Both the position numbers and the translations under genes were made by a program. The notes beneath the pieces are model-generated. The model was not told the DNA's origin, made no database searches, and saw only the letters and a list, made by a program, of their open reading frames with translations. From contig NZ_JANQOO010000017.1 in NCBI RefSeq assembly GCF_028285715.1, positions 62,001 to 126,000 of the forward strand: 64,000 nucleotides of DNA, written 5' to 3'. Positions 30,686 to 31,443 of the stretch are shown in pieces. Position 1 is the first letter of the stretch. Each line of letters starts with the position of its first letter. Source of the stretch: Ulvibacterium sp. (lineage in GTDB: Bacteria > Bacteroidota > Bacteroidia > Flavobacteriales > Flavobacteriaceae).

Positions 30686-31091
30686 ATGAATATATCGCTA
30701 CCTACCTATTCCCCAACACAAGCGGAAATCTTATTTTGAACCCAAGAAAGAACGTATCATTCCACAAACCGATTGCCCAAAGCTGCTTTGAGCCATATTA
30801 GGATTATTTTCCGATCAACACAGGAGAAAACATCCTTTAATCAACATGAAGTTGACCTGGATTGTAATTTCTTACCCCTTGATGGTTCATCTTTCCGGTA
30901 GTATTTGGTTTGAGGGCAATGCCCCGATGTCGCTTCGCAGGTATCTTAGCCAAAAGTAGATGTAGTATGGATGACTGCATATGTTTTTATCGGAAATCCC
31001 TATGCGCAAGATGGGAGTGACCCAGGCATCTTCAGAGCAGCTTTAATTTTAATCAATCTAGATATAAATATTTGAAAATCAATTATTTATA

Positions 31092-31122
31092 TTGTTTCTA
31101 ATATAAACCAAGTGTATTTTTG
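31092..31122 (+). promoter_or_regulatory. Promoter of the Cys-rich miniprotein
   Basis: TTG (31092-31094), 20-bp spacer, TATTTTTG (31115-31122), 23 bp before the ATG. A full consensus match. Confidence 0.65.
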
Positions 31123-31145: not shown

Positions 31146-31391
31146 ATGCCCATTAGATTAGCAACCAGTTGCTCCAATTGCAACAATCTTTCCGGAGGGA
31201 ACACCTGTACCCAACATAAAATACAGGTAAGTGAACGACATACTTGCGATAGTTTTTCTATGCAAGAAGCCCTTAAGAACAACATGAACTGCGGCACCTG
31301 TACACGGTTTAATACCTCCGATTGCCCGCATCCTCAAAAGGCATCGGCAGAAATGTTGTGCTCAAGTTGGGCGCCCAAAGCTGTAGCCTAA
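31146..31391 (+). CDS. Cysteine-rich 81-residue protein with two CxxC...C.H...C modules
   Basis: A small soluble protein with eight cysteines. They fall into two copies of one pattern. Module one is C9-x2-C12-x8-C21-x2-H24-x9-C34 followed by DSF; module two is C49-x2-C52-x7-C60-x-H62-x9-C72 followed by SSW. The repeated ligand spacing points to two zinc or iron-sulfur sites produced by internal duplication. No signal peptide or membrane segment is seen, so it should be cytoplasmic. I do not recognise a named family. It is a complete unit on its own: a consensus promoter lies 23 bp upstream and a strong terminator 24 bp downstream, which suggests it is well expressed. Confidence 0.8.
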   Translation: MPIRLATSCSNCNNLSGGNTCTQHKIQVSERHTCDSFSMQEALKNNMNCGTCTRFNTSDCPHPQKASAEMLCSSWAPKAVA

Positions 31392-31414
31392 AACTAAACT
31401 AACTCAAAAAACCG

Positions 31415-31443
31415 AAAAGGAAGACCATGGTCTTCCTTTTTTT
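31415..31443 (+). terminator. Rho-independent terminator of the Cys-rich gene
   Basis: Palindrome GGAAGACC-ATGG-TCTTCC region (perfect dyad 31419-31436) followed by seven T residues. The A-run before the stem pairs with the T-run, so it could also work weakly on the minus strand. Confidence 0.88.

Follow-up and report, generated by a model that had tools for sequence, protein, structure and literature searches.

What is the short reading frame at positions 31146-31391 (plus strand, stop included) of the window, by which we mean the whole 64,000-nucleotide stretch of Ulvibacterium sp. DNA analysed here, and when and to what end would its product be made? Starting from an ATG, the frame encodes an 81-residue, 8.8-kDa protein, MPIRLATSCSNCNNLSGGNTCTQHKIQVSERHTCDSFSMQEALKNNMNCGTCTRFNTSDCPHPQKASAEMLCSSWAPKAVA, built from two cysteine modules. 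Of 397 Flavobacteriaceae genomes sampled, 63 carry a homologue, all eight cysteines are invariant in 97 distinct homologous sequences, and close homologue pairs gave pN/pS values of 0.05/0.72 and 0.04/0.74, so that the frame is not a chance one and the family is under strongly purifying selection. That we are dealing with a chance frame or an artefact, as the lack of any matching database family might suggest, is exceedingly improbable in view of the invariant cysteines and of pN/pS ratios far under 1. The protein thus represents a real, conserved and unnamed family that is widespread in marine Flavobacteria.

How far does this family reach? Among GTDB contigs, at least 132 stretches encode relatives of the protein, and the best 80 of these 132 all belong to Bacteroidota, with Allomuricauda, Maribacter, Aquimarina, Dokdonia, Leeuwenhoekiella, Polaribacter, Capnocytophaga, Psychroflexus, Cyclobacterium and others among the genera. 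A phylum-wide sample gave matches in 11 of 395 genomes, three of the 11 being weak and crossing stop codons. The distribution is patchy, since the gene is absent from both other genomes of the window's own genus that were searched. An origin from a phage or plasmid was considered and rejected: the viral contigs of IMG/VR hold no relative, there was no credible phage match, and the plasmid matches are megaplasmids of Persicobacteraceae. Searches of Pfam, NCBIfam and PHROGs with the single protein returned no convincing family, only weak and mutually discordant matches, and the same disagreement among weak matches was seen when 65 family members were run against Pfam and PHROGs. The PDB yielded no match to the family by sequence or by profile, and Rfam none within the window.

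The first functional handle on the family comes from its promoter, and it points to iron. The preliminary description had credited the gene with a promoter of its own, and this is indeed present in the Bacteroidetes form: a TTG at -33 (31092-31094, plus strand), a spacer of 20 nucleotides and the -7 element TATTTTTG (31115-31122, plus strand), which follows the Bacteroidetes pattern TAnnTTTG. The position of these elements is conserved, the last base of the TTG lying 21 nucleotides before TAnnTTT in nearly all homologues, and DNA similarity to relatives starts at about 31047 and continues through the gene. A scan for E. coli-type sigma-70 promoters found none on the gene's strand, as expected of a model that is not that of Bacteroidetes. 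The preliminary description had also given the gene a very strong terminator. The terminator scan found a real hairpin at 31414-31441, a 12-bp stem followed by a T-run, but the stem holds only four G-C pairs, and the opposite strand also reads as a terminator, so that it probably serves the convergent gene too.

Two Fur-type boxes lie in this promoter region. The upstream one, TAATTTTAATCAATCTAGATA (31044-31064), scores 12.3 bits against a matrix that we trained on 75 sites outside the family of the 81-residue protein and used with a threshold of 5 bits. The second, TATTTATATTGTTTCTAATAT (31084-31104), lies exactly 40 bp further downstream and overlaps the -33 element; alone it scores 2.1 bits, because the TTG of the -33 element replaces the centre of the box. 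The box over the -33 element recurs in the family, 81 of 101 upstream regions sharing the motif CAGYTATTTAWATTGNTTCTAA (box TATTTAWATTGNTTCTAA), which has the frame of the palindrome TATTTAGAATNATTCTAAATA. Elsewhere in the family loci this palindrome stands upstream of TonB receptors, genes of the DUF4856/imelysin operon, ferritin and a fur-like gene. With the matrix, scores above 5 bits were reached by 75 of 79 family promoters, while in the control, which comprises 819 regions upstream of other frames and includes the training sites, 83 did so; a box of the kind that membership of a Fur regulon calls for is thus found in nearly all homologous promoters and in that of the window. Among 78 promoters, the best box is separated from the second-best by 40 bp in 52 and by 41 bp in 5 more, the second box being taken here without a threshold.

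Fur-type boxes also precede the single-module genes found in some relatives (L135-L138), and the pair at 40 bp is kept in two of them (L135 and L136) and in a short two-module form (L142). A second fixed geometry occurs before DUF4856/porin-like genes, where pairs of Fur-type boxes lie about 72 bp apart (L048, L062, L073, L102 and L052). The motif overlapping the -33 element, which has two matches in the genome, was also considered as an element specific to this gene; this we rejected, as it is a Fur box merged with a -33 element. Its only other near match (C26:99106) precedes a gene for an FAD-dependent oxidoreductase, which is a possible electron-transfer partner, although one match may be chance.

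Judging from these promoters, the gene is in all likelihood under Fur control, and the protein would very probably be made when iron runs short. A box placed over the -33 element suggests repression by the iron-loaded regulator and induction at low iron, and we infer that the repressor is Fur itself. This speaks against the earlier expectation of an abundant product: with two Fur boxes in its promoter, the gene should be off when iron is plentiful, and constitutive abundance of the protein is not supported. We found no earlier report of the gene as a Fur target in the literature searched.

Could the boxes belong instead to another regulator of the same family? The genome encodes four FUR-family proteins, FUR paralogues have similar boxes and cysteine-rich buffers are typical of zinc stress, so that one may think of PerR or Zur and of a protein serving peroxide or zinc stress, for instance as a metal buffer. 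The company that the palindrome keeps makes this improbable, as it flanks iron genes both in the genome of the window and in relatives. In the former, nine palindromes were found at three or fewer mismatches, compared with none for a control pattern, which means that the palindrome is specific; they flank hemA with an AraC regulator, feoB, sdhC, a cytochrome-c gene and TonB receptors (the translated neighbours were identified by reading rather than by a family scan). The palindrome is moreover the Fur box of another member of the Flavobacteriales, Riemerella anatipestifer, in which the box is ATTTAGAATTATTCTAAAT and Fur bound four promoters in electrophoretic mobility shift assays (PMC5609570). 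Two of the palindromes in the genome of the window stand upstream of respiratory genes that use iron, sdhC (C11:498419) and the gene for an ActA-like cytochrome c (C29:632633), where they could reflect activation by Fur or iron sparing.

Does the neighbourhood of the gene fit an iron function? In the window the gene lies beside guaB and an HMG-CoA-lyase-like gene, and an imelysin gene is absent from the genome. In relatives, the gene is often accompanied by operons for iron uptake: guaB lies near it in 36 loci, an operon of a TonB receptor, HTTM-VKGC, imelysin and DUF4856 in about 24, an imelysin/di-haem oxidoreductase/imelysin arrangement in 4, and HmuY with TonB receptors in several. A single imelysin match is present in 18 of 25 genomes that carry the gene, and in 12 of these 18 it lies within 7 kb of the gene; random placement (14 kb of about 3.5 Mb) would give well under one such case. 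Part of this linkage may be inherited gene order, guaB being part of that block in many genomes. Between guaB and the gene, relatives carry DUF6686, of which no remnant is detectable in the window; in six loci (L035, L036, L037, L038, L041 and L042) the DUF6686 (PF20391) gene begins some 50 bp behind a Fur-type palindrome that it shares with the divergent guaB, and DUF6686 may itself be an iron-regulated protein.

What would such a protein do with its cysteines? Module 1 (31170-31256, plus strand) reads C9-x2-C12-x8-C21-x2-H24-x9-C34-D-S-F37, and module 2 (31290-31370, plus strand) reads C49-x2-C52-x7-C60-x-H62-P-x8-C72-S-S-W75. The preliminary description had seen C-x2-C-x8-C-x2-H-x9-C in both, at nearly equal spacing; the pattern is exact in module 1, and in module 2 two of the gaps are each one residue shorter. 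It had also named the cysteines beforehand as the point on which two zinc or iron-sulphur sites would stand or fall, and such sites are likely, since the 97 homologues keep all eight cysteines and the C-x2-aromatic tails, the invariant residues being C9, C12, C21, H24, C34, D35, C49, C52, C60, P63, C72, W75 and P77. The histidines did not hold up as ligands. Of the 97 sequences, 69 carry Asn and 27 His at position 62, and in distant homologues from Persicobacteraceae (L143 and L144) position 24 is Asn and position 75 Tyr, with all eight cysteines kept. As both histidines can be replaced by Asn and the cysteines stay, the likely ligands are two sets of four cysteines, each with the common pattern C-x2-C-x7/8-C-x11/12-C-x2-aromatic, and we regard two Cys4 metal sites as probable. 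AlphaFold2, run on 65 family sequences, gave a low-confidence model (pLDDT 44, pTM 0.24), with which Foldseek found no match.

Did the two modules arise by duplication, as had been suggested? This is possible but weak, and it rests mainly on the cysteine spacing. The profiles of the two modules align weakly (p = 0.0055, and 0.029 with the cysteines masked), which leaves duplication plausible and unproven. Small-genome flavobacterial relatives encode proteins of 41-46 residues with module 1 alone (L135-L138, of which L135 lies near a contig end). One module can therefore stand by itself, and these proteins lend duplication independent support.

The N-terminus, M-x-I-R-x4-C, shows no signal peptide when the sequence is read by eye rather than with a predictor, so that the protein should be cytoplasmic. 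Our preferred reading, which we put forward tentatively and at somewhat less than an even chance, is that of a Fur-repressed, iron-starvation-induced cytoplasmic metalloprotein, acting as a small iron-sulphur electron carrier or iron donor for iron mobilisation. When iron is sufficient, iron-loaded Fur would sit on the two boxes, 40 bp or about four helical turns apart and one of them over the -33 element, and keep the gene off. At low iron Fur would leave, and the monocistronic promoter would make the 8.8-kDa protein. Each module would then hold one metal centre with its four cysteines, most likely a small iron-sulphur centre with ligands in a general CX2CXnCXnC order. Functionally a counterpart of the Bfd of proteobacteria, the protein would help to free iron from storage or from imported ferric complexes. 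The family with its invariant cysteines, the boxes with their spacing and the iron genes nearby are seen in the sequences themselves. We infer both the electron-carrier role and iron-sulphur in place of zinc, and the former is favoured because Bfd is a precedent for a small iron-sulphur protein that frees stored iron; that the protein is an iron-sulphur electron carrier for iron mobilisation is possible, if somewhat doubtful.

The same Fur-controlled gene could alternatively encode a protein whose two Cys4 sites bind structural zinc, a small adaptor or RNA-binding regulator of an iron-sparing response like the Fur-controlled FbpA/B/C of Bacillus. We consider this unlikely, though worth keeping in mind. 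The Fur boxes and a small, monocistronic, cytoplasmic protein would suit it, as would the C-x2-C-x8-C-x2-H within module 1 and a few weak Pfam matches of zinc-finger type, for example to Prok-RING_2 in 26 of 65 members (best E 0.0026). Each site, however, has only one CxxC pair: of the ligand pairs of zinc ribbons and CCCH fingers, C-x2-C and C-x2-[CH], the second is absent from module 2, and in module 1 its H24 is replaceable by Asn. The family also has a median pI of 6.7 and a mean net charge of about zero, which is a mild argument against nucleic-acid binding.

Under our preferred reading of an iron-sulphur carrier or iron donor, the family would be a candidate for the handling of scarce intracellular iron in marine Flavobacteria, which live under chronic iron limitation and whose iron stimulon is poorly described. 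The predicted flavobacterial Fur regulon gains an unnamed protein family, and the fixed two-box promoter offers a clean reporter. We further speculate, with clear doubt, that the family is a new class of Fur-repressed mini iron-sulphur or iron-binding proteins made of one or two 40-residue Cys4 units, a flavobacterial counterpart of the reductive iron release of the Bfd/FhuF type with a free-standing one-module form in small-genome relatives. If so, that form of 41-46 residues would rank among the smallest iron-sulphur proteins, and the one-module homologues provide a very small model metalloprotein.

How does this compare with known systems? The Fur regulon of R. anatipestifer shares the palindrome with our locus, and its TonB-VKGC-imelysin operon, which is among the Fur-derepressed genes there (PMC5609570), adjoins the gene of the 81-residue protein in relatives; unlike in that regulon, the gene has a pair of boxes whose spacing is fixed at 40 bp, one of them on the -33 element. 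HiPIPs resemble the modules in size and in the order C-x2-C-xn-C-xn-C followed by x2-[WYF], but the spacings of our protein are shorter than those of 1cku, HiPIPs hold one cluster and they are exported. Homology to HiPIPs was rejected, because in hhalign 5-10 of 100 shuffles with fixed cysteines scored equally and nothing was significant beyond the cysteines. C-x2-C-xn-C-xn-C is also the pattern of HiPIP-like [4Fe-4S] subunits, and the small subunit of 4-hydroxyphenylacetate decarboxylase (HPAD) is a 9.5-kDa protein with two [4Fe-4S] clusters (PMC12358834). With about 9 kDa, as in the HPIP_like small subunits of BSS and MASS, and two CX2CXnCXnC-like sets as in HPAD gamma, its best analogue in architecture, our protein might be thought a two-cluster subunit of a glycyl-radical enzyme. 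This is very improbable and is largely refuted by the absence of a partner: a PFL-like enzyme occurs in 2 of the 25 gene-bearing genomes, is missing in the other 23 and is absent from that of the window. The HPIP_like model PF18524 is matched by none of 65 family members at E<=1, the hosts are marine and mostly aerobic, and the gene is predicted to be Fur-controlled. Bfd holds one [2Fe-2S] cluster with the cysteine spacings C-x-C and C-x2-C, from which the spacing of the 81-residue protein differs, and the Bfd model PF04324 is matched neither by the protein nor by 65 family members. The likeness to Bfd is one of kind and setting: Bfd is a small iron-sulphur protein of iron mobilisation that frees stored iron (PMC7760384), and the 81-residue protein would likewise be a small cytoplasmic cysteine protein tied, by its predicted regulation, to iron mobilisation under low iron.
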